Part shown: piece by piece, positions 3,792 to 36,578 of the stretch
Numbering within the stretch: the stretch's first letter is position 1
Layout: the number at the start of each line of letters is the position of its first letter
Source: an uncultured Rhodopila sp.
GTDB lineage: Bacteria; Pseudomonadota; Alphaproteobacteria; Acetobacterales; Acetobacteraceae
NCBI RefSeq assembly: GCF_903915725.1
Contig: NZ_CAIWTY010000092.1
Location: 62,001-126,000 of the forward strand
Reading direction: 5' to 3'
DNA length: 64,000 nt
Notes under the pieces: model-generated
Databases searched by the model: none
What the model saw: only the letters and a program-made list of their open reading frames with translations
Told to the model about the DNA's origin: nothing
Program-made: the position numbers and the translations under genes

Positions 3792-5648
3792 CTACCGGCG
3801 GCGCAGCGCATTCACGTCCCGCACGGCGCCGCGGGCAGCGCTGGTGGCCATCGCCGCATAGGCGCGCAACGCGGAGGACACCTGCCGCTGGCGCGTTTCG
3901 GCTGGCTGCCACGCGGCATCGCCCTTGGCTTCCATGGCCGCCCGGCGCGCTGCCAATACGGCGTCCGGCACGTCCAGGACGATCGAGCGCGCGGGGATGT
4001 CGATCCGGATGATGTCGCCCTCCTCGATCAGCCCGATGGCGCCGCCTTCCGCGGCTTCCGGAGAGCAGTGGCCGATGCACAGGCCGGACGACCCGCCGGA
4101 GAAGCGGCCGTCGGTGATCAGGGCGCAGACTTTGCCCAACCCCTTGGATTTCAGGTAGCTGGTCGGATACAGCATCTCCTGCATCCCCGGTCCGCCGCGC
4201 GGGCCTTCGTAGCGCACCAGCACGATGTCGCCCGGCTTCACGCCGCCGCCCAGGATGCCATCCACCGCTGCGTCCTGGCTTTCGAACACCCGCGCCGGGC
4301 CGGAGAAGGTCAGGATGCTGGCGTCCACCCCGGCGGTTTTGACGATGCAGCCTTCCTCGGCGATGTTGCCGTACAGCACGGCGAGGCCGCCATCCTTCGA
4401 GAACGCGTGCGCGACGTCGCGGATCACGCCCTTCTCGCGGTCGTCGTCCACCGCGTCCCAGCGGGCCGACTGGCTGAACGCTTCCGTCGTCGGCACGCCG
4501 CCGGGGGCGGCCCGGTAGAACCTCCGCACCGCGTCGTCCCTGGTGCGGCGGACATCCCAACGCTCCAGCGCCTCGGCCAGGGTTTCGGCATGCACCGTCG
4601 GGACCGAGGCGTCGATCAGCCCGACACGCTCCAGTTCGCCGAGGATCGCGAATATCCCGCCGGCGTGGTGCACGTCTTCCACATGCACGTCGGGGACGGA
4701 CGGCGCGACCTTGCACAGCACCGGCACGCGGCGGGACAGCCGATCGATGTCGAGCATGGTGAAGGGGACGTTGCCCTCGTTTGCGGCAGCCAGCAGATGC
4801 AGCACGGTGTTGGTCGAGCCGCCCATGGAGATGTCCAGCGTCATGGCATTCTCGAACGCGGCGAAGGTGGCGATGCTGCGCGGCAGGACGGTGGCGTCAT
4901 CGGTTTCGTAGTGGCGGCGGGTGATCTCGACGATCTTGCGTCCGGCCTCCAGGAACAGGTCCCGGCGGTCCGCGTGGGTGGCGACGACGGTGCCGTTGCC
5001 GGGCAGGCCGAGGCCGAGCGCCTCGATCAGGCAGTTCATCGAGTTGGCGGTGAACATGCCGGAACACGAGCCGCAGGTCGGACAGGAGGACCGCTCCATC
5101 GCCTCGACCTCGGCGTCGGTGTTGGTGTCGTCGGCCGCGGCGATCATGGCGTCGATCAGGTCGACGGAGCGGGTCTTGCCCTTGTGAAGGACCTTGCCGG
5201 CCTCCATCGGGCCGCCTGAGACAAAGACGGCGGGGATGTTGAGGCGCATCGCGGCCATCAGCATGCCGGGGGTGATCTTGTCGCAGTTGGAGATGCAGAC
5301 CATGGCGTCGGCGCAGTGGGCGTTGACCATGTATTCGACGCTGTCGGCGATGAGTTCCCGCGAGGGCAGGCTGTACAGCATGCCGTCATGGCCCATGGCG
5401 ATGCCGTCATCGATGGCGATGGTGTCGAATTCCTTGGCGACGCCGCCGGCCTTCTCGATCTCGCGGGCGACGAGCTGGCCGAGGTCCTTCAGGTGCACAT
5501 GCCCCGGCACGAACTGGGTGAAGCTGTTGACCACGGCGATGATGGGCTTGCCGAAATCGCCGTCCTTCATCCCCGTCGCGCGCCACAGGCCGCGGGCGCC
5601 GGCCATGTTGCGGCCGTGGGTGGTGGTGCGGGAGCGATAGGCCGGCAT
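3792..5648 (-). CDS. ilvD: Dihydroxy-acid dehydratase
   Basis: Dehydrates 2,3-dihydroxy-isovalerate and -methylvalerate to the 2-keto acids in valine, leucine and isoleucine synthesis; cytoplasmic Fe-S enzyme. 618 residues, the usual length for the E. coli-type enzyme. Cluster-region cysteines are visible: Cys118 and Cys122 in [12 protein letters not shown], and Cys189/192/195 in [21 protein letters not shown] start with the conserved [22 protein letters not shown] opening. It stands alone, with no other branched-chain genes nearby. Downstream lies only the hydrolase remnant. Confidence 0.97.
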
Positions 5649-5813: not shown

Positions 5814-6014
5814 ATGCCCGATACGCACTCGTTACTGATGAAAATCCAGGCTTTGTCGTCCGAGCGACAGAGCGAGGTGGAAGATTTCTTCGATTTCCGC
5901 GCCGCAAAAATGCGCCGCCAGGCCGCGTGGGACCGCTTGTTGTCGATTGCACCGGCGCTGGAGGCCGCGGACGCGGCGCCGCGGTCGGAGGAGGATGTCT
6001 TTGGCCCAAGGTGA
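5814..6014 (+). CDS. Small DUF2281-like putative antitoxin
   Basis: 66 residues from the ATG at 5814 (the frame is open upstream, but that part looks noncoding). The SLLMKIQALSSERQSEVEDF opening is the helical pattern of DUF2281/VapB-like antitoxins (a ...LPPERQxEVxDFIxFL-type motif), followed by a charged tail ending SEEDVFGPR. Its 3' end overlaps the next small gene by 20 bp, a typical toxin-antitoxin arrangement, but that partner looks like another antitoxin rather than a toxin. Assignment is by short motif only. Confidence 0.5.
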   Translation: MPDTHSLLMKIQALSSERQSEVEDFFDFRAAKMRRQAAWDRLLSIAPALEAADAAPRSEEDVFGPR

Positions 6015-6198
6015 GATTGAATCGGACCCCGCTCTTCGACCGTTTCTCGCGCTTCTGGCGCGTGACATTGAAAGCCATCCGGAGACGCTTGTCGCGCTGA
6101 CCCGGCCTTTGATCGAGCGCATCCAGGCCTTGACCGCCGGGATCACCGTCGATCCGGATGATCCCATTGAAGGCGATGTTGGATTATATAGGCCGTGA
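5995..6198 (+). CDS. PrlF-like antitoxin, C-terminal half only
   Basis: 67 residues. PALRPFLALLARDIESHPE and then LVAL...LTAGITVDPDDPIEGD align by eye with the C-terminal half of E. coli PrlF (SohA), the antitoxin of YhaV (there NAFLRFLDADIQNNPQK ... VAGMDVNIDDEIGDD). The N-terminal AbrB/SpoVT DNA-binding half is absent; its place is taken by an unrelated overlapping gene. A GTGA overlap leads into a YhaV-like start that is cut short after 15 residues. Probably a broken locus or a recombined antitoxin. Confidence 0.5.
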   Translation: MSLAQGEIESDPALRPFLALLARDIESHPETLVALTRPLIERIQALTAGITVDPDDPIEGDVGLYRP

Positions 6199-6242
6199 CC
6201 CAGTATTACGGCTGGACGTTGCTTAGACAATTTGATCCCTGA
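6195..6242 (+). pseudogene. YhaV-like toxin stub (first 15 codons)
   Basis: A GTG at 6195 overlaps the TGA of the PrlF-like gene and reads VTQYYGWTLLRQFDP, then TGA at 6240-6242. The YGWTLL core matches the VNGWxLxxHPxF opening of YhaV ribonuclease toxins, and position and coupling are as expected for a prlF-yhaV pair. All the rest of the toxin is missing and an oppositely oriented gene begins 6 bp later. Short match, so moderate to low confidence. Confidence 0.35.
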
Positions 6243-6248
6243 CGCCGA

Positions 6249-6839
6249 TCAGCGTCGAGATTTGCCGCCCGCGCCTCGAAGCTGCGCGCGAAGCCGTTCT
6301 CGTGTTGTGGCGTCCTTGCTCGCTGCGCGTTGACGCTCGATGTTACGGCCTTTGGCGGCGGCCTGGTCGAGGATATAGTCACTCGATTGAATCAGCCCCA
6401 CACCCTCAAGCTCACGTAAAAAATCGCCGGTGCTGATCAGACTTGCCCGCTCATCGACAATCGCGCGCCGTTTCGCGACATCGCTGTCCTCGAACAGAAG
6501 CAGCGCTTCCGCGGTGGGATTGAGGCGAAGGAAACGCTCCAGAGTTTCGATGGCCGACTGCTCGCCCAGACCGCGAGCGGAGCGGCCTTCTTCGAGACGG
6601 CGTTGCTGGTCGATGCCGATGTCAGTCGGCACGATCCTGACTGCCTCGAGATGAGCGTTGATCCATTCGACGATCTGTTCGGCGCCCGGCGCGCCGTGAA
6701 CCCGGGTGGCTTCGACGTAGACCGCGTCGGGAATGCTCACAGGCAATCCGGGTCTGAGCAAGACGTCGAGGCTATCCGCAAGCACCAATGTGAACAGCGG
6801 CGAGGTGTCGGTAACGATAAGGCTGAACGTCTCGCTCAA
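6249..6839 (-). CDS. PIN-like toxin candidate
   Basis: 196 residues from a TTG that overlaps the TGA of the upstream small gene (TTGA); the longer frame to 7001 is only a shadow of that gene. It opens LIVTDTSPLFTLVLADSLDVL, with the early Asp and Ser of PIN-domain nucleases. IPDAVYVEATR (second acidic site), GEQSAIE and the later ALLLFEDSDVAKRRA fit the other acidic positions of the fold. A helical tail rich in Arg/Lys (about 145-196) is longer than usual for VapC. Together with its partner it forms a likely type II toxin-antitoxin pair; cleavage target unknown. Confidence 0.6.
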   Translation of the reverse strand: MSETFSLIVTDTSPLFTLVLADSLDVLLRPGLPVSIPDAVYVEATRVHGAPGAEQIVEWINAHLEAVRIVPTDIGIDQQRRLEEGRSARGLGEQSAIETLERFLRLNPTAEALLLFEDSDVAKRRAIVDERASLISTGDFLRELEGVGLIQSSDYILDQAAAKGRNIERQRAASKDATTRERLRAQLRGAGGKSRR

Positions 6840-7057
6840 CGCTGCGCCTGCAGGGCCCGGCGGATGATGGCCCGGCCACGCTCGCGCGCCTCCACATTCG
6901 GCCCCTCCATAGGCGCCATCGGCGGGCGGAGGCCCAGTTCGCCAAGCGCCCCGAGCACCTGAACGTAGTCCTCGAACCCGCGCTCCCGCAGCGTGTGCCA
7001 AGTGATGTCCCCGGCTGCGTATTGGCGAATAAGCGCGTCCCTTTCGCAGACTTCCAT
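6836..7057 (-). CDS. Putative antitoxin partner of the PIN-like protein
   Basis: 73 residues, ATG start, translationally coupled to the PIN-like gene by a 4-bp overlap. Predicted mostly helical: RDALIRQYAAGDITWHTLRE looks like a small DNA- or protein-binding helix set, then a Pro-rich linker and a basic helix. I do not recognise a named family. Being first in the pair and shorter than its partner suggests the antitoxin role. Confidence 0.5.
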   Translation of the reverse strand: MEVCERDALIRQYAAGDITWHTLRERGFEDYVQVLGALGELGLRPPMAPMEGPNVEARERGRAIIRRALQAQR

Positions 7058-7095
7058 ATCTCAGTTCCTTAATTCAGCTGAGCTTACCACCTCAG

Positions 7096-7338
7096 TCAGC
7101 GCTTGCGCATCTCTTCTTCAATCTTGGTCAGGCGCTGACTGAGGGTAAGATTTCCCGGCAAGCCGTACACGACATGCCCGCGCACGGTATCAGTCTCTTG
7201 CCGGATGGCTGACATCTTATCGAGGATATCGTCGAGCTTGGTGTTCAGTTGCTCCCTGAGCGGTTCCTGCTCAGCTTCCAATTTAGCCTGCCCCGCCTCC
7301 AGGCGGGCCAGCGCGGATCGTATCGAATCGTCAGACAT
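7096..7338 (-). CDS. Short coiled-coil protein
   Basis: 80 residues. Residues 1-55 are a heptad-rich helix (SALARLEAGQAKLEAEQ ... LNTKLDDILDKMSAIRQE), followed by a short tail (VYGLPGNLTLSQRLTKIEEE). Function unknown. It resembles in style the 66-residue protein at 8264-8464 and the larger coiled-coil protein at 51992-52528. A role as structural or toxin-associated adaptor is speculation. Confidence 0.5.
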   Translation of the reverse strand: MSDDSIRSALARLEAGQAKLEAEQEPLREQLNTKLDDILDKMSAIRQETDTVRGHVVYGLPGNLTLSQRLTKIEEEMRKR

Positions 7339-7665
7339 CGCTTAGCCCCCTGCCAATATCCGCGCCCACCGGCCATGCCGCCATGGGCGAAGGCCGCTTA
7401 TCTCGCAGTCAACCGCCGCCGAAATGACAAAAGGCGGCCGCCCAGTAATCCGGACGACGGCCTTCGGATCCATCGGACGAAGTGCCGCGGATCTCGCTGT
7501 ACGAGCATCCAAGCGTCTTTGCCCTGCCGGTGAGAGAGAGTCTACCGATCCCGCATCATGCCGGGGCGGCAGGCGCCCGATAGCCGAGGGAGGACGCGCC
7601 GATCCAAAGTCTGGCCGTCCGCGAAGGTGACCACCGCCGCTCGCCGTCCTTGCCGATTCTCACGG
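7339..7665. other. Intergenic region, nothing recognised
   Basis: 327 bp between the coiled-coil gene and the UPF0114 gene. Open frames here are short and Arg-rich, as expected from GC-rich noncoding DNA. No terminator with a T-run and no RNA gene was seen. Confidence 0.5.
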
Positions 7666-8163
7666 TCAGTGCTTGTCAGCGCCAATCCGATCCGAAATCG
7701 CCAGGATCAGTCCGGAAAACACGAACATCATGTGAATGCCGACCAGCCAGGCCACATCCACTTTGTTGTAAGCTTCAATATTCATGAACGCTTCCAGCAC
7801 CTGGATCGCCGAGATCGCCACGATCGAGGTAATCAGCTTCATTTTCAAATCGGCGAAATCGACCTTGCCCATCCAGGCCGGCCGCTCCTCCTTCGTATCC
7901 GTCTCGATACGGGATATGAAGTTCTCATAGCCCGCCAGGATCACCATCAGCAGCAAATTGCCGGTCAGTGCGATGTCCACCAGCTTCAGGCTGACCACAA
8001 TCGTCGCATCCAGGTCGAGCGCGATGAACTCCGGAAACAGCGAGACCAGCTTCTGCATGAACTTGAACGCCAGCAGCGCCAGCGCGACGACCAGGCCGAG
8101 GTAGAACGGCAGCAGCAGCCAGCGGCTGGCGAACAACAGGCGATGCAGAAAGCGCTCGATCAT
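7666..8163 (-). CDS. UPF0114 (YqhA-type) membrane protein
   Basis: 165 residues. The opening MIERFLHRLLFASRWLLLPFYLGL, KLVDIALTGNLLLMVILAGYENF and a late helix with WLVGIHMMFVFSGLILA are the UPF0114 family pattern; four membrane segments are visible. The role of the family is not established. The ATG at 8163 was chosen because family members begin MERxL; the longer frame adds 13 unlikely residues. Transcribed alone. Confidence 0.85.
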   Translation of the reverse strand: MIERFLHRLLFASRWLLLPFYLGLVVALALLAFKFMQKLVSLFPEFIALDLDATIVVSLKLVDIALTGNLLLMVILAGYENFISRIETDTKEERPAWMGKVDFADLKMKLITSIVAISAIQVLEAFMNIEAYNKVDVAWLVGIHMMFVFSGLILAISDRIGADKH

Positions 8164-11610: not shown

Positions 11611-12678
11611 ATGGCCTATGTCGCGGTCAAGGGCGGCGAACAGGCCATCGATGCCGCCCATGCCTGGCTGGCGGAGGAGCGCCGCGGCGACACCTCCAGT
11701 CCGGCGTTGTCCGTCGCGCAGATCCAGGACCAGCTCGGCCGCTCGGTTGACCGCGTCATGGCCGAGGGATCGCTTTATGATCGCCAACTTGCGGCGCTGG
11801 CGATCAAGCAGGCACAGGGCGACCTCATCGAGGCCGCATTCCTGTTGCGCGCCTATCGCACCACGCTGCCGCGCTTCGCCCATTCGAAGCCGGTCGAGAC
11901 GGCCGCGATGACGATAGAGCGGCGGATTTCAGCGATTTTCAAGGACCTTCCCGGCGGCCAGGTGCTGGGGCCGACCTATGATTATACGCATAGGCTGCTG
12001 GATTTCGGGCTGCTGGAGGATGAGGCGCCGCCCTCCGGCGCACTTACCGCGGAGGCCGATGCGGCGGCGATGCCGCGGGTTCCGGATATCCTCGGACAGG
12101 AGGGTTTGCTGGAACCGGACCTGGCATCCGATCGCGAGCCGGGTGACCTGACGCGCGAACCGCTATCCTTCCCAGCCGAACGGGACGTCCGGTTGCAGGC
12201 ATTGGCGCGTGGCGACGAAGGGTTCGTGCTCGGCATGGGCTACTCGACGCAGCGCGGCTACGGCAGCTCGCATCCGTTTGCCGGGGAAATCCGCATGGGC
12301 GAGGTGTCGGTCGAGATCGAACCGGCGGAGCTCGGGTTCGCCATCGATATCGGCGACCTGGTGCTGACGGAATGCCAGATGGTCACCCGCTTCAAAGGCT
12401 CGAAGACGGTGCCGCCGCAGTTCACCCGCGGCTACGGGCTGGTGTTCGGCTTCGGCGAGCGCAAGGCAATGGCGATGGCCCTGGTCGATCGCGCCATGCG
12501 CGCGGAGGAACTGGGCGAGGACGTGACCGCTCCGGCGCAGGACGTGGAATTCGTGCTGTACCATTCCGACAACATCGAGGCGACCGGCTTCGTCGAGCAT
12601 CTGAAGCTGCCGCACTACGTCGATTTTCAGAGCGAACTGCAGAACGTAAGGCGGATGCGGGCGGAGGCCGAGGCATGA
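11611..12678 (+). CDS. phnI: C-P lyase subunit PhnI
   Basis: 355 residues, standard length. MAYVAVKGGEQAIDAAHAWL, FLLRAYRTTLPRF and the C-terminal EFVLYHSDNIEATGFVEHLK are strongly conserved PhnI features. PhnI carries nucleosidase activity and with PhnG/H/L forms the ribose-phosphonate. It overlaps phnJ by 4 bp, so it is translationally coupled. Confidence 0.96.
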   Translation: MAYVAVKGGEQAIDAAHAWLAEERRGDTSSPALSVAQIQDQLGRSVDRVMAEGSLYDRQLAALAIKQAQGDLIEAAFLLRAYRTTLPRFAHSKPVETAAMTIERRISAIFKDLPGGQVLGPTYDYTHRLLDFGLLEDEAPPSGALTAEADAAAMPRVPDILGQEGLLEPDLASDREPGDLTREPLSFPAERDVRLQALARGDEGFVLGMGYSTQRGYGSSHPFAGEIRMGEVSVEIEPAELGFAIDIGDLVLTECQMVTRFKGSKTVPPQFTRGYGLVFGFGERKAMAMALVDRAMRAEELGEDVTAPAQDVEFVLYHSDNIEATGFVEHLKLPHYVDFQSELQNVRRMRAEAEA

Positions 12679-13541
12679 AAGGCTACAACTTCGCCTATCT
12701 GGACGAGCAGACGAAACGGATGATCCGCCGCGCGCTGCTGAAGGCGGTGGCGATTCCCGGGCATCAGGTGCCGTTCGGCTCACGCGAGATGCCGCTGCCG
12801 TATGGCTGGGGCACCGGTGGAATTCAGGTGACGGCGGCAATCCTGGGCGCCGACGATGTGCTGAAAGTGATCGACCAGGGGGCGGACGACACGACGAACG
12901 CGGTGTCGATCCGGCGCTTCTTCGCCCGCACCGCCGGGGTGCGGACGACGACGGCAACCGCGGAGGCGACGGTGCTCCAGACGCGGCATCGCATTCCCGA
13001 GAAGACGCTGCGCGAGGACCAGATCATCGTCTACCAGGTGCCGCAGCCGGAACCGCTGTGGCGGCTGGAGCCGAGCCGGGTGGAGACGACGCGGATGCAC
13101 GGCCTTGCGGATTACGGGCTGATGCATGTAAAGCTGTACGAGGACATCGCCCGTTACGGCCAAATATCCATCGCCTACGATTACCCGGTGATGGTGAACG
13201 AGCGTTACCTGATGTCTCCCAGTCCGATCCCGGCGTTCGACAATCCGAAGATGGACATGATGCCGGCGTTGCAATTGTTCGGTGCGGGGCGGGAGAAGCG
13301 GATCTACGCGATCCCCCCCTGGACGCGCGTGCGGTCGCTGGATTTCGACGATCATCCGTTCCGGCCGATCAACGCTGCGCATCCGTGCGGGTTGTGCGGC
13401 GCTACGGACGCCTATCTGGATGAGGTGGTGACGGACGATCGCGGCGGCAGGCTGTTCGTTTGCTCCGATACGGATCATTGCGCCGATCGGCGTGCCGCGG
13501 GGCATGTCGGGGCGCAGGGGTTGCGGGAGGCGGCGGAATGA
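12675..13541 (+). CDS. phnJ: C-P lyase radical-SAM subunit PhnJ
   Basis: 288 residues. The catalytic subunit that breaks the carbon-phosphorus bond of ribose-1-phosphonate-5-phosphate with a 4Fe-4S cluster and SAM. Four cysteines are in the known arrangement: Cys238 and Cys241 (PCGLC), Cys263 (FVC) and Cys269 (DTDHC), each offset by three from E. coli Cys241/244/266/272; the last corresponds to the thiyl-radical cysteine. MKGYNFAYLDEQTKRMIRRA start. The compact overlapping block phnG-H-I-J ends here. Confidence 0.97.
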   Translation: MKGYNFAYLDEQTKRMIRRALLKAVAIPGHQVPFGSREMPLPYGWGTGGIQVTAAILGADDVLKVIDQGADDTTNAVSIRRFFARTAGVRTTTATAEATVLQTRHRIPEKTLREDQIIVYQVPQPEPLWRLEPSRVETTRMHGLADYGLMHVKLYEDIARYGQISIAYDYPVMVNERYLMSPSPIPAFDNPKMDMMPALQLFGAGREKRIYAIPPWTRVRSLDFDDHPFRPINAAHPCGLCGATDAYLDEVVTDDRGGRLFVCSDTDHCADRRAAGHVGAQGLREAAE

Positions 13542-14031
13542 TAGTGCAGCGGCACAGCGGGGCGCTCACGCGGCAACGGTCATGCGCGGCACAACGGCCA
13601 ATCCCCGTGGCAACAAAAAGCAAGCAATATGCAGCACGGATTTCGCCGATTAGGTCACGGATTTCATCGAGGCGATCGCGGCCGCATGAGGCGCGCTGGC
13701 CCGCGGTCGCGCGGTCCCACCGAGGGCGGTTCATCGTTCGATGCAATGCGTGCCTTAATCCCTGTAATTCGTGTTACGTCTTGCTTCGCGTCCAACCCCC
13801 GAGTGGCCGGGTAATGAGACTCCGGTTGCGATTCCAGATCGATAGCCGCCGCCCGGCATGGCCTGGCGCACTGCCCATGGCCCATCGGCGTAGCAGAGGA
13901 AGACGAAGAACTACAAAAACCCCAACAAGCGCAAGTATTGCGCTTCATGCACCAGGACCACGCTTCCAACATCCCCGGCAGTTGGCCTCCGAGCGCGCCG
14001 ATCGGCGGCCGTCATGACCACCGCTGGCCTT
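13542..14031 (+). other. Long spacer inside the phn operon
   Basis: About 490 bp separate phnJ from phnK; in most C-P lyase operons these two are adjacent or overlap. No gene is recognised. One plus-strand frame is open from 13818 and reads ...VAEEDEELQKPQQAQVLRF..., without a convincing start or known family. Two GCCGATCGGC palindromes flank the region (13482 and 13997). It may hold a second promoter, or be the scar of a lost gene. Confidence 0.45.
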
Positions 14032-14808
14032 ATGACCGACCCGACCCTCCTTTCCGGCCGCGGCTTGAATCTGTTGTTCGGCGCCATTCCGGCCCTGGCG
14101 GACGTAAACGTCGATCTATGGCCCGGCGAGATGCTGGCGATTGTCGGCGAATCCGGCTCCGGCAAGACCACTCTGCTGAATGTGCTGTCGGGCCGACTCA
14201 CACCCGACAGCGGCGAGGTCCGGTATCGTGATCCGGATGAACGCCTGCTCGACGTGCACGCGATGCCCGCCCCGGCGTTGCGAACCTTGCACCGCTCCGA
14301 CTGGGGGTTCGTGCATCAGGACCCGCGGCAGAACCTGCGCATGAACGTCAGCGCCGGCGGCAATGTCGGCGAGCGCCTGATGGCACGGGGTTCCCGGCAC
14401 TATGGCGATATTCGCGCCACCGCCCTGGACTGGCTCGCCCAGGTCGAGATCGACGCCGATCGGCTGGACGATCTGCCGAGGACGTTCTCGGGTGGGATGT
14501 TGCAACGGCTGCAGATCGCCCGCACGCTGGTGACGCATCCGCGGCTGGTCTTCATGGATGAGCCGACCGGCGGATTGGATGTTTCTGTGCAGGCACGATT
14601 GCTTGATCTGATCCGGTCGCTGGTGGCGCGGCTGCGCATCGCGGTGGTGCTGGTGACGCACGACATTGCGGTGGCGCGACTGCTGGCGCACCGCATCGCG
14701 GTGATGCAGCGCGGGCGGATCGTCGAGACCGGACTGACCGATCAGGTGCTGGACGATCCGCGGCATCCCTACACCCAGTTGCTCGTCAGTTCAGTCTTGA
14801 ATGCATGA
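14032..14808 (+). CDS. phnK: C-P lyase ABC-type ATPase PhnK
   Basis: 258 residues. Walker A GESGSGKTT, signature TFSGGMLQRLQIARTL, Walker B VFMDEPTGGLD and the H-loop VLVTHDIA. The LWPGEMLAIVGESGSGKT context separates PhnK from PhnL. It binds PhnJ in the C-P lyase complex, where ATP turnover supports the reaction rather than transport. The ATG at 14032 matches the E. coli start better than the in-frame ATG at 14014. Confidence 0.93.
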   Translation: MTDPTLLSGRGLNLLFGAIPALADVNVDLWPGEMLAIVGESGSGKTTLLNVLSGRLTPDSGEVRYRDPDERLLDVHAMPAPALRTLHRSDWGFVHQDPRQNLRMNVSAGGNVGERLMARGSRHYGDIRATALDWLAQVEIDADRLDDLPRTFSGGMLQRLQIARTLVTHPRLVFMDEPTGGLDVSVQARLLDLIRSLVARLRIAVVLVTHDIAVARLLAHRIAVMQRGRIVETGLTDQVLDDPRHPYTQLLVSSVLNA

Positions 14809-35085: not shown

Positions 35086-36300
35086 TCAATGATGCAGCAG
35101 CACCGGCATATCGGCCGCGGCGAGAACCTCCCGCGTTGCGCCGCCGAGGACGAACTCCGCCAGCCTGCCATGGGAATATGCGCCCATCACCAGCAAATCG
35201 GCGCCCGTCCGGTGCGCCCGGGCGATCAGCGCCTCGCCGACGGGCAGGCCCCCGGCATCGAACCGCTCGACCTCCGCCGCGATCCCTGACTGCCGCAGGA
35301 TGGCGGGGAGGTCGTCCGGCTCCGTCTCGCCGCCGCCGGTCTCGATCAGCACGCTGACCCGTTCGGCCTGCGCCAGCAGGGGAAGCGCCGCCTCGACCGC
35401 CCGGTTGGCGGCAGCGCAGGGTTTCCAGGCGATGGCAACCCTGCGCCCGAGCGAAGCCGGGACCGCGGCGGGCACCAGTAACGTCGTCAACCGGGACACA
35501 AACAGTGCGGTGTGGATGGCGTGCTGCGCCTCGGCCCGATGTCGCTCCGCCCCCTGCCCAATAACAACGAGATCAGCCTTGCCGGCTTCCGCGGCAATCA
35601 CCTGCGCGGTCTCGCCGGTGAGCTCCCGCCACTCACGCACGCCGCCGTCCGAACGCCAGGCGTCGAACAGGCCCCGCAGCTCCGCCGACAACCGCCCGGC
35701 CTCCCCGTCGATCTCCTGCCGGCGCGTCTCGGTCATGATCTCCTCCGTCGGCATAAAGCCTTCCAGGGCATCGTGGCGCACGTGCAGGACCTCGATCCGG
35801 GCGTTGCCCAGCCGCCCGGCCAGCAGCGCCGCGGCGGCCAGAACCGGGCGCGCGGTATCCGCCCGGTCGAGGATGGCCAGGATCGAATGGGAGTTGGCGG
35901 AGGCCTCCGTTTGCAGCAAGCCAACCCAACCCGCGGCGAGGTGGCCGAGCGTCACCGACAGCAGGCAGAGGGTCACCGACAGCACCACATTGCCCATCGC
36001 CGGCAGCCAACTGCCGTCGCGCGCCAGCGACAGCGTCTGAAGGCTGAACGACGAGAACGTGGTGAAGCCGCCGCAAATGCCGACCATGACGAAGATGCGG
36101 AGGTTCGGGTGGGCCGGGAGAGGGCCTTCCGGTGCCGTCAAAGCGCCGAAGCAGCCGATGATGAAACTGCCGATGACGTTGATGGCGATGGTGCCCCAGG
36201 GGAAGCTGTCACCCCAGAGCCGGCTGGCCAGCAGCCCGAACCCGTAGCGGCCGACGCCGCCGAGCGCGCTGCCGAGCGCCACGCAAAGATAGGCGATCAC
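35086..36300 (-). CDS. FluC/CrcB fluoride channel fused to a tandem universal-stress protein
   Basis: 404 residues. Residues 1-128 are a complete FluC subunit of four helices: GRYGFG near 17, GTIAINVIGSFIIG (about 36-49, with the pore Asn) and GICGGFTTFSSFS (about 73-85, with the Phe-box). Residues about 138-404 are two UspA-like domains, the last ending DLLVMGAYSHGRLAEFVLGG, the ATP-binding G-x9-G(S/T)-type loop. FluC alone is about 125 residues, so this is a genuine fusion on the inner-membrane face. GTG start coupled to a 21-codon ORF; a fluoride riboswitch lies upstream. Confidence 0.92.
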   Translation of the reverse strand: MIAYLCVALGSALGGVGRYGFGLLASRLWGDSFPWGTIAINVIGSFIIGCFGALTAPEGPLPAHPNLRIFVMVGICGGFTTFSSFSLQTLSLARDGSWLPAMGNVVLSVTLCLLSVTLGHLAAGWVGLLQTEASANSHSILAILDRADTARPVLAAAALLAGRLGNARIEVLHVRHDALEGFMPTEEIMTETRRQEIDGEAGRLSAELRGLFDAWRSDGGVREWRELTGETAQVIAAEAGKADLVVIGQGAERHRAEAQHAIHTALFVSRLTTLLVPAAVPASLGRRVAIAWKPCAAANRAVEAALPLLAQAERVSVLIETGGGETEPDDLPAILRQSGIAAEVERFDAGGLPVGEALIARAHRTGADLLVMGAYSHGRLAEFVLGGATREVLAAADMPVLLHH

Positions 36301-36362
36301 GCCAGACCACTCCGGCGGCCGGGTGCGGGGATCGGTATTGTGTCTGTCCGGCCGGTGTCCAT
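36297..36362 (-). CDS. Short upstream ORF coupled to the FluC-Usp gene
   Basis: 21 codons (MDTGRTDTIPIPAPGRRSGL, then Ala) with an AAGGAG site 5 bp before ATG 36362. The TGA overlaps the GTG of fluC-usp (GTGA), while that GTG has no ribosome site of its own. It looks like a coupling ORF that loads ribosomes for the transporter rather than a functional peptide. Confidence 0.5.
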   Translation of the reverse strand: MDTGRTDTIPIPAPGRRSGLA

Positions 36363-36424
36363 ACCGTCTCCTTCGCTCACCCTATGCGGCGCGCGAAAGA
36401 GCACGGCCTCGCTGTCGACTTCGG

Positions 36425-36502
36425 ACAGAGTCCTACCGCGGCATCTCTCGCACGGTAGGAGTCATCAGCCCTTGCGGGCGGTTCAGGGGGGACTCCATCC
36501 CC
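36425..36502 (-). ncRNA. Fluoride riboswitch (crcB motif)
   Basis: Minus-strand RNA: GGGGATGGAGTCCCCC, CTGAACCGCCC, GCAA, GGGCTGATGACTCCTACCG in order. This is the crcB-motif consensus: GATGG and the TGATG...CTCCTACC blocks plus AACCGCC. The 3' CTCCTACCG pairs with CGGTAGGA 14 nt later, giving an expression-platform hairpin without a T-run. It lies about 60 nt upstream of the short ORF and 125 nt upstream of the fluC-usp start, so fluoride should switch on this operon. Confidence 0.88.
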
Positions 36503-36578
36503 AGCGCGATATATTGATAGTCATAGGCAGCGCGTTGGGCAAGCGGCAGGCGAGGCCGTGACGATTACGCCAACGGCT

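Follow-up and report, generated by a model that had tools for sequence, protein, structure and literature searches.

A FluC-type fluoride channel subunit fused to a tandem universal stress protein in an uncultured Rhodopila sp. and other Acetobacteraceae

Fluoride channels of the FluC (CrcB) family are described as active in the form of antiparallel dimers, constructs forced into the parallel arrangement having minimal activity, and the evidence for the antiparallel dimer comes mostly from crosslinking, engineered fusions and structures (PMC3755343, as far as the excerpt available to us goes). A pore role has been assigned to the TM3 residues F82, S83 and F85, and the E88Q variant of Fluc-Bpe still conducts, with one-fifth of the current (PMC8315801, available in part). 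About 15% of the Flucs are under riboswitch control according to the accessible section of a review (PMC11139923). In Enterobacter cloacae FRM a universal stress protein (Usp) gene is part of the fluoride riboswitch operon ppaC-uspA-eno-gpmA-crcB; uspA is up 120-fold with fluoride, and resistance survives the deletion of uspA, crcB or both (all from the portion of PMC5533749 at hand). Both domains, the riboswitch and the operon link between FluC and Usp are already known; the fusion of the two is a new variant, and no description of it was found in the titles and abstract openings of the open-licence PMC papers listed. Here we present a FluC-Usp-Usp fusion gene and its surroundings in the window, i.e., the whole stretch of 64,000 nucleotides analyzed (uncultured Rhodopila sp., contig NZ_CAIWTY010000092.1, positions 62,001 to 126,000), together with a comparison with related loci.

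By curated models spanning the whole domain of four transmembrane helices the fusion protein (Table 1) is a member of the FluC/CrcB family, and by its family model it is also a universal stress protein. Regarding Pfam, CRCB (PF02537) matched residues 5-119 (E 4.2e-28, 98.1 bits, cut-off 32.9) and Usp (PF00582) matched in two stretches (E 1.3e-13, 52.2 bits, cut-off 24); regarding NCBIfam, PRK14206 yielded 157.6 bits (cut-off 140) and TIGR00494 85.5 bits (cut-off 80.45). Among solved structures, those closest to the channel part are of Flucs (5a40, 5a43 and others), and the profile of the Usp part matches the structures 4wny, 3loq (a tandem Usp), 1mjh and 1wjg. The family matches and the uninterrupted frame bear out the first-pass annotation of this DNA, which had read one GTG-started frame joining a complete FluC/CrcB subunit to two Usp domains; the three FluC motifs that it quoted are all present in the frame.

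Table 1. Features of the fusion locus (positions are those of the window)
Feature	Positions	Strand	Description and evidence
FluC-Usp-Usp fusion gene	35086..36300	-	GTG start, 404 aa plus stop, no internal stop
FluC/CrcB subunit, residues 1-125	35926..36300	-	Pfam CRCB, NCBIfam TIGR00494 and PRK14206, above cut-offs
FluC TM3 pore motif GICGGFTTFSSFSLQT, residues 74-89	36034..36081	-	F82, S83 and F85 kept; Gln 88 replaces the usual Glu
Linker, residues 126-138	35887..35925	-	Poorly conserved (alignments)
Fossil Usp start	35893..35908	-	SD-like GGAGG at 35904-35908; AAC at 35893-35895, where G006:C12/G024:C184 and G034 have ATG
First Usp-type domain, residues ~139-278	35467..35886	-	No recognisable nucleotide loop (Pfam Usp, alignments)
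Second Usp-type domain, residues ~285-404	35089..35448	-	Nucleotide loop half kept (Pfam Usp, best stretch 336-402; 1mjh alignment)
Leader, 148 nt between aptamer and start codon	36301..36448	-	Strongly structured, possibly an expression platform; SD-like GGAG just ahead of the start codon
Fluoride riboswitch aptamer RF01734	36449..36511	-	cmscan 60.1 bits (gathering score 34), E 3.5e-14, full model 1-64

Comparison with related loci confirmed that the fusion in the window is real and not an assembly artefact. The protein of another genome of the genus (G006), 88% identical, is likewise encoded by one open frame, and the dN/dS ratios between the window and this nearest copy are 0.067 for FluC, 0.17 for the first and 0.24 for the second Usp domain, so that a one-off assembly slip does not account for the locus. 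Judged from these ratios, all three domains are under purifying selection; those obtained with a distant relative (L006), 0.6-0.96 in the three domains, are near saturation and little informative. Between the window and its nearest relative the linker is 54% identical, compared with 97% for the FluC part. A stop codon between the two parts, which the first-pass annotation had named as the sign against a fusion, is absent from the window and does occur, once and in frame, in three relatives (L151 in G192, L152 in G169 and L162 in G305). That a sequencing or assembly error erased such a stop between two genes gains some plausibility from these three relatives, but its probability is close to negligible: the open fusion is found in independent assemblies, with 88, 80, 73 and 60% identity to the window protein, and also on a complete plasmid of Lichenicola cladoniae, the window has lost the Usp start codon as well, and the domains appear to be under selection between the window and the nearest copy.

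We searched 299 Acetobacteraceae genomes with a profile built from six fusions, scoring up to six candidates per genome, and counted an open frame running from FluC into Usp sequence as a fusion; the counts are lower bounds. Fusions were present in at least 19 of the 299 sampled genomes, whole or nearly whole in 13 (G000, which is the window's genome, G034, G232, G236, G113, G130, G272, G187, G303, G331, G142, G188 and G235) and with an incomplete or degenerate tail, or one truncated by the end of the contig, in six (G201, G097, G081, G078, G033 and G104). Four more genomes of the window's own genus (G002, G006, G024 and G029) carry it as well. In one locus (L153, G232:C162) the frame breaks within the second Usp domain, which represents either decay or an assembly error. 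In the cultured Lichenicola cladoniae (G303) the fusion lies on the circular, complete plasmid NZ_CP053712.1; this protein of 409 aa, accession WP_171835217.1, is labelled only CrcB by RefSeq, and its neighbors are dynamin, Usp and Na+/H+ antiporter genes. Two contigs (G006:C12 and G024:C184) encode an identical fusion protein in the same gene order, due either to shared mobile DNA or to cross-binning of metagenome assemblies, and each of the two genomes also carries a second, different fusion. Among 385 genomes of the class and 398 of the phylum, the only fused frame found was the window's own (E <= 1e-50, up to four candidates per genome; divergent fusions may be missed), and FluC and Usp were adjacent in two genomes (G647 and G908). 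Of the 1054 plasmid records with a match, three have at least 80% of the protein covered at a single place; it is fused in one record and encoded by separate genes in the other two.

In the window's genome, which is 99.18% complete, no frame other than the fused one matches PF02537, and every PF02537 match is fused in 20 of the 23 genomes with a fusion. Sixteen of these genomes are at least 90% complete. The PF02537 search yielded no unfused FluC in 13 of them (G000, G006, G024, G029, G033, G303, G113, G272, G187, G235, G097, G081 and G104), in which the channel must therefore consist of tailed chains; the other three (G034, G142 and G078) have unfused copies beside the fusion that could pair with the fused FluC. 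Without the genomes whose tails are short or degenerate, the proportion in which every FluC is fused is nine of 11. Contamination amounts to 7% in G024 and 5% in G303.

Judged by their gene arrangements, the relatives display every stage from adjacent genes to fusion. FluC and Usp are adjacent genes in different frames in L102, L137-L141, L013 and L016; they share a frame with a single stop between them in the three loci named above; L083/L084 (G006:C12/G024:C184) and L098 (G034) are fusions that retain the Usp start codon; and the window and L094 are fusions that have lost it. No in-frame ATG, GTG or TTG with an SD-like site was found at the junction in the window. Since the Usp domains appear to be under selection and this junction offers no usable internal start, the comparison implies that Usp is translated as part of the fusion.

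The FluC tree (75 rows, only 122 columns, many forks unresolved) separates a group of 6 fused rows, to which the window belongs, from a larger group of 19 fused rows; it requires three label changes, the third of which is an unfused row (L166) within the larger group. A single origin of the fusion, with all fused rows held together, was rejected on the FluC tree (AU p 0.000438, 25 of 75 rows held together) and on a quick Usp tree (AU p 0.0146, 17 of 63 rows). These rejections indicate that the fusion arose at least twice independently from a FluC-Usp gene pair travelling together. FluC with a degenerate or shortened Usp tail was observed in L097 (G033), L134 (G081), L135 (G078), L136 (G104) and L165 (G097); the first four form one starred branch of the FluC tree, which suggests that the tail can become dispensable.

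Upstream of the fusion gene, on the same strand, lies a fluoride riboswitch of which the first-pass annotation made no mention. It belongs to RF01734 by a covariance score above the gathering threshold (Table 1) and is the only match to this model in the window's genome. The stretch 36290-36515 (minus strand) folds with -102.9 kcal/mol (z -3.2, none of 200 shuffles being as stable); a consensus scan for terminator-like sites detected none in the leader, its single site overlapping the start codon and being at chance level. Regarding the 25 fused rows of the FluC tree, 16 are preceded on their own strand by a riboswitch, at a short distance in 15 cases and at 1.07 kb, beyond an intervening gene, in one, and nine have none at the gathering score; regarding adjacent but separate FluC-Usp rows, 3 of 11 have one. 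In the relatives set of 59 genomes, a fluoride riboswitch of any kind is present in 6 of 7 genomes with the fusion versus 4 of 52 without it (Fisher p 3e-5, uncorrected for relatedness). The stress sensing that had been proposed for the fusion is thereby supported at the level of expression only.

Other fluoride riboswitches in the relatives precede genes for Na+/H+ exchangers, CLC-DUF190, MutS-like, dynamin-like and NADH-dehydrogenase-like proteins and glutamine synthetase. In L083 (G006:C12) a riboswitch at 12179-12240 lies about 370 nt before a glutamine synthetase gene (12613-14094), as it does in L084 (G024:C184); this gene is followed in both loci by two Usp genes, a second riboswitch and a Na+/H+ exchanger. 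We know of no precedent for glutamine synthetase as a fluoride-regulated gene. L088 shows the run riboswitch-Na+/H+ exchanger-Usp-Usp, and L085 an enolase gene after the fusion. In L095 (G005:C137) a CLC-type protein with a C-terminal DUF190 domain (5948-7810) has a riboswitch ahead of it, and L087 (G029:C142) contains three fluoride riboswitches within less than 1 kb (5153-5218, 5315-5374 and 6012-6071), around dynamin-like and MutS-like genes.

The stretch GICGGFTTFSSFSLQ agrees with the TM3 motif GxxGGxTTFSTFxxE apart from two conservative replacements, of T by S84 and of E by Q88, the latter residue being common to 74 of the 75 FluC rows of the tree set. Selective fluoride conduction is predicted for the fused channel, a prediction with which the retained pore residues are compatible.

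The first-pass annotation had asked whether a large tail on each chain fixes the topology or must be accommodated on both membrane faces; this question stands, and it is sharpened by the lone PF02537 match in the genome. The K/R loop bias (Lys and Arg in the termini and loop 2 minus those in loops 1 and 3, a crude measure) is -1 in the window. It averages 1.16 (range -1 to 3, with three rows at +3) in the 25 fused FluCs, 1.00 in 11 adjacent and 1.46 in 39 other unfused ones; the mean is thus slightly positive in the fused and the unfused groups, and the 25 fused and 39 unfused FluCs did not differ (Mann-Whitney p 0.33). Values of 0 for E. coli CrcB and 6-7 for true antiparallel pairs are on record (PMC3962082, from the part available). 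Opposite biases were not seen in genomes with two fused FluCs (G303 +1/+2, G006 -1/-1, G024 -1/+1). Assignment to the paired, heterodimeric FluCs (twins) was rejected on account of the single PF02537 match in the genome and the lack of clearly opposite biases in the two-fusion genomes. A fifth membrane helix serving as inversion linker was likewise rejected, as no hydrophobic segment was detected in the linkers of 15 fusions by a crude scan that also misses TM1; in five of the 15, the window not among them, a hydrophobic stretch above the threshold lies well within the Usp part (259-320), and its place is not shared between the fusions. The loop charge balance is compatible with an antiparallel dual-topology dimer, and the charges, which show only that there is no obvious re-bias, give no sign that the tail re-sets the topology. 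E. coli CrcB with large C-terminal reporters is said to have shown both orientations, which would make tails on two faces physically plausible.

It is rather improbable that the tail fixes a C-in topology and that the channel is a parallel or higher-order assembly or has another partner. A large folded cytosolic C-terminal domain could bias insertion, and one of the fused groups (group B) carries an additional arginine in loop 2 and, in many cases, one or two after TM4; however, the same group gains an arginine in loop 3 too, the charge bias is that of unfused FluCs, the linker contains no extra helix, no other FluC was found in the 13 of 16 genomes, and parallel-forced FluC is nearly inactive (PMC3755343, excerpt). 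Of the two options offered by the first-pass annotation, a topology fixed by the tail is unsupported by the loop charges, and tails on both faces are for this reason the better reading.

The explanation that we favor, at odds slightly better than even, is a fluoride-induced FluC in which each subunit carries a covalent tandem Usp and which would assemble as an antiparallel dimer with one tail per face. It builds on features read from the sequence itself, namely the fluoride riboswitch, a FluC that is complete and retains its pore residues, the uninterrupted frame, selection acting on every domain and the lack of a second PF02537 match in the genome. Fluoride would bind the riboswitch and turn the gene on, the chain would insert in both orientations, as singleton FluCs do, and two opposite chains would form the channel through which fluoride leaks out; each channel would therefore display one tandem Usp on its cytosolic side and another on its periplasmic side. 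The tail in the cytosol would act as a flexibly linked stress-protein accessory, one-to-one with the channel and probably not a gate, i.e., as the partner that related bacteria encode as a separate gene of the operon. Counting against this explanation are the nine of 25 fused loci without riboswitch and the unfused FluC in three of 16 genomes; two-face display in particular would be costly, as it places a domain of 270 residues in the periplasm, where it might misfold. Somewhat short of even odds is the fuller proposal that the same 270-residue domain occurs on both faces, one Usp cytosolic and one exported, that this arrangement evolved at least twice, and that the tandem Usp is a self-contained pseudo-dimer because the two tails of one channel never meet.

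The two-face problem would disappear if the fusion were cut in the linker, free FluC dimers and free Usp then doing the work and the fusion setting only a one-to-one dose. We consider this unlikely, at about one chance in five. The linker, short and variable, is conserved less than any other stretch, and relatives encode FluC and Usp as adjacent separate genes, but no conserved cleavage motif was visible by eye in the linkers of 15 fusions, cleavage would be needed on both faces, and neither the window nor G006:C63 retains the internal Usp start, so that a second route to free Usp was not kept.

ATP-binding Usp proteins of the MJ0577 type carry the loop motif G-2X-G-9X-G(S/T). In the alignment of the second domain with MJ0577 (1mjh), G373 and G386 match, S376 replaces the second glycine and G387 sits at the S/T position; with two of four signature positions kept, assignment to this type was rejected, and no nucleotide loop was seen in alignments of the first domain. 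The intact nucleotide loop that the first-pass annotation had reported for the second domain is thus only half there, and the ATP sensing coupled to export that it had proposed finds no support in either domain. That the cytosolic tail is a nucleotide-responsive gate which opens or plugs the channel, making this a regulated FluC, is accordingly quite improbable. Usp folds elsewhere bind ATP, cAMP or c-di-AMP, as reported in sources available in part, and the tail would be near one pore mouth, but FluC channels are described as constitutively open (PMC3755343, excerpt), the loop is incomplete or absent, the gap between the HMM matches varies from 24 to 81 nt (8 to 27 residues) with no conserved motif, and tails degenerate where FluC is kept. 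A tethered accessory seems a better description of the tail than a precise gate, because linkers vary and tails degrade or shrink (G033, G097, G081, G078 and G104) while FluC is kept, and also because relatives have separate adjacent FluC and Usp genes and a Usp belongs to the E. cloacae fluoride operon.

Should the fuller proposal of the same domain on both faces hold true, this FluC would be the first to have a soluble domain, and a stress protein would be tolerated or used on the wrong side of the membrane. The value of the locus lies in a natural test of dual topology and not in a new system: a large natural C-terminal domain on the sole kind of FluC in 13 of 16 near-complete genomes makes the test a clean one, and its three outcomes (tails on two faces, a cut chain or a broken topology rule) are each informative and separable by standard topology assays. 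In addition, the tree catches the fusion one stop codon away from its unfused relatives, and Usp proteins, vague in function, are tied to one defined stress, fluoride.

Compared with known bacterial FluC/CrcB proteins (Fluc-Bpe, Ec2), the window shares the fold family by sequence and the length of the channel part, keeps F82/S83/F85, T37 (= T39) and N41 (= N43), and has similarly balanced loop charges; it differs by Gln 88 and Asn 104, both known natural variants (PMC8315801, part available), and, while known prokaryotic Flucs are described as having 120-130 residues and short termini (PMC3755343, excerpt), it adds a tail of 280 residues. The eukaryotic FEX proteins and the engineered La1-La2 likewise consist of FluC domains fused to other sequence, but they join two FluC domains, the active ones via an inverting membrane helix, whereas the window joins a soluble domain and has no inversion helix. 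Usp fusions of the KdpD type place a Usp within a membrane protein that faces ion stress, as in the window, although KdpD is a sensor kinase and not a dual-topology channel like FluC (from sources available in part). The separate crcB and usp genes of E. cloacae FRM, Pantoea R4' and Methylocella (crcB-usp-eno) combine the same two families under the same stress, with a riboswitch in E. cloacae; there they encode two proteins, whereas the window encodes one.
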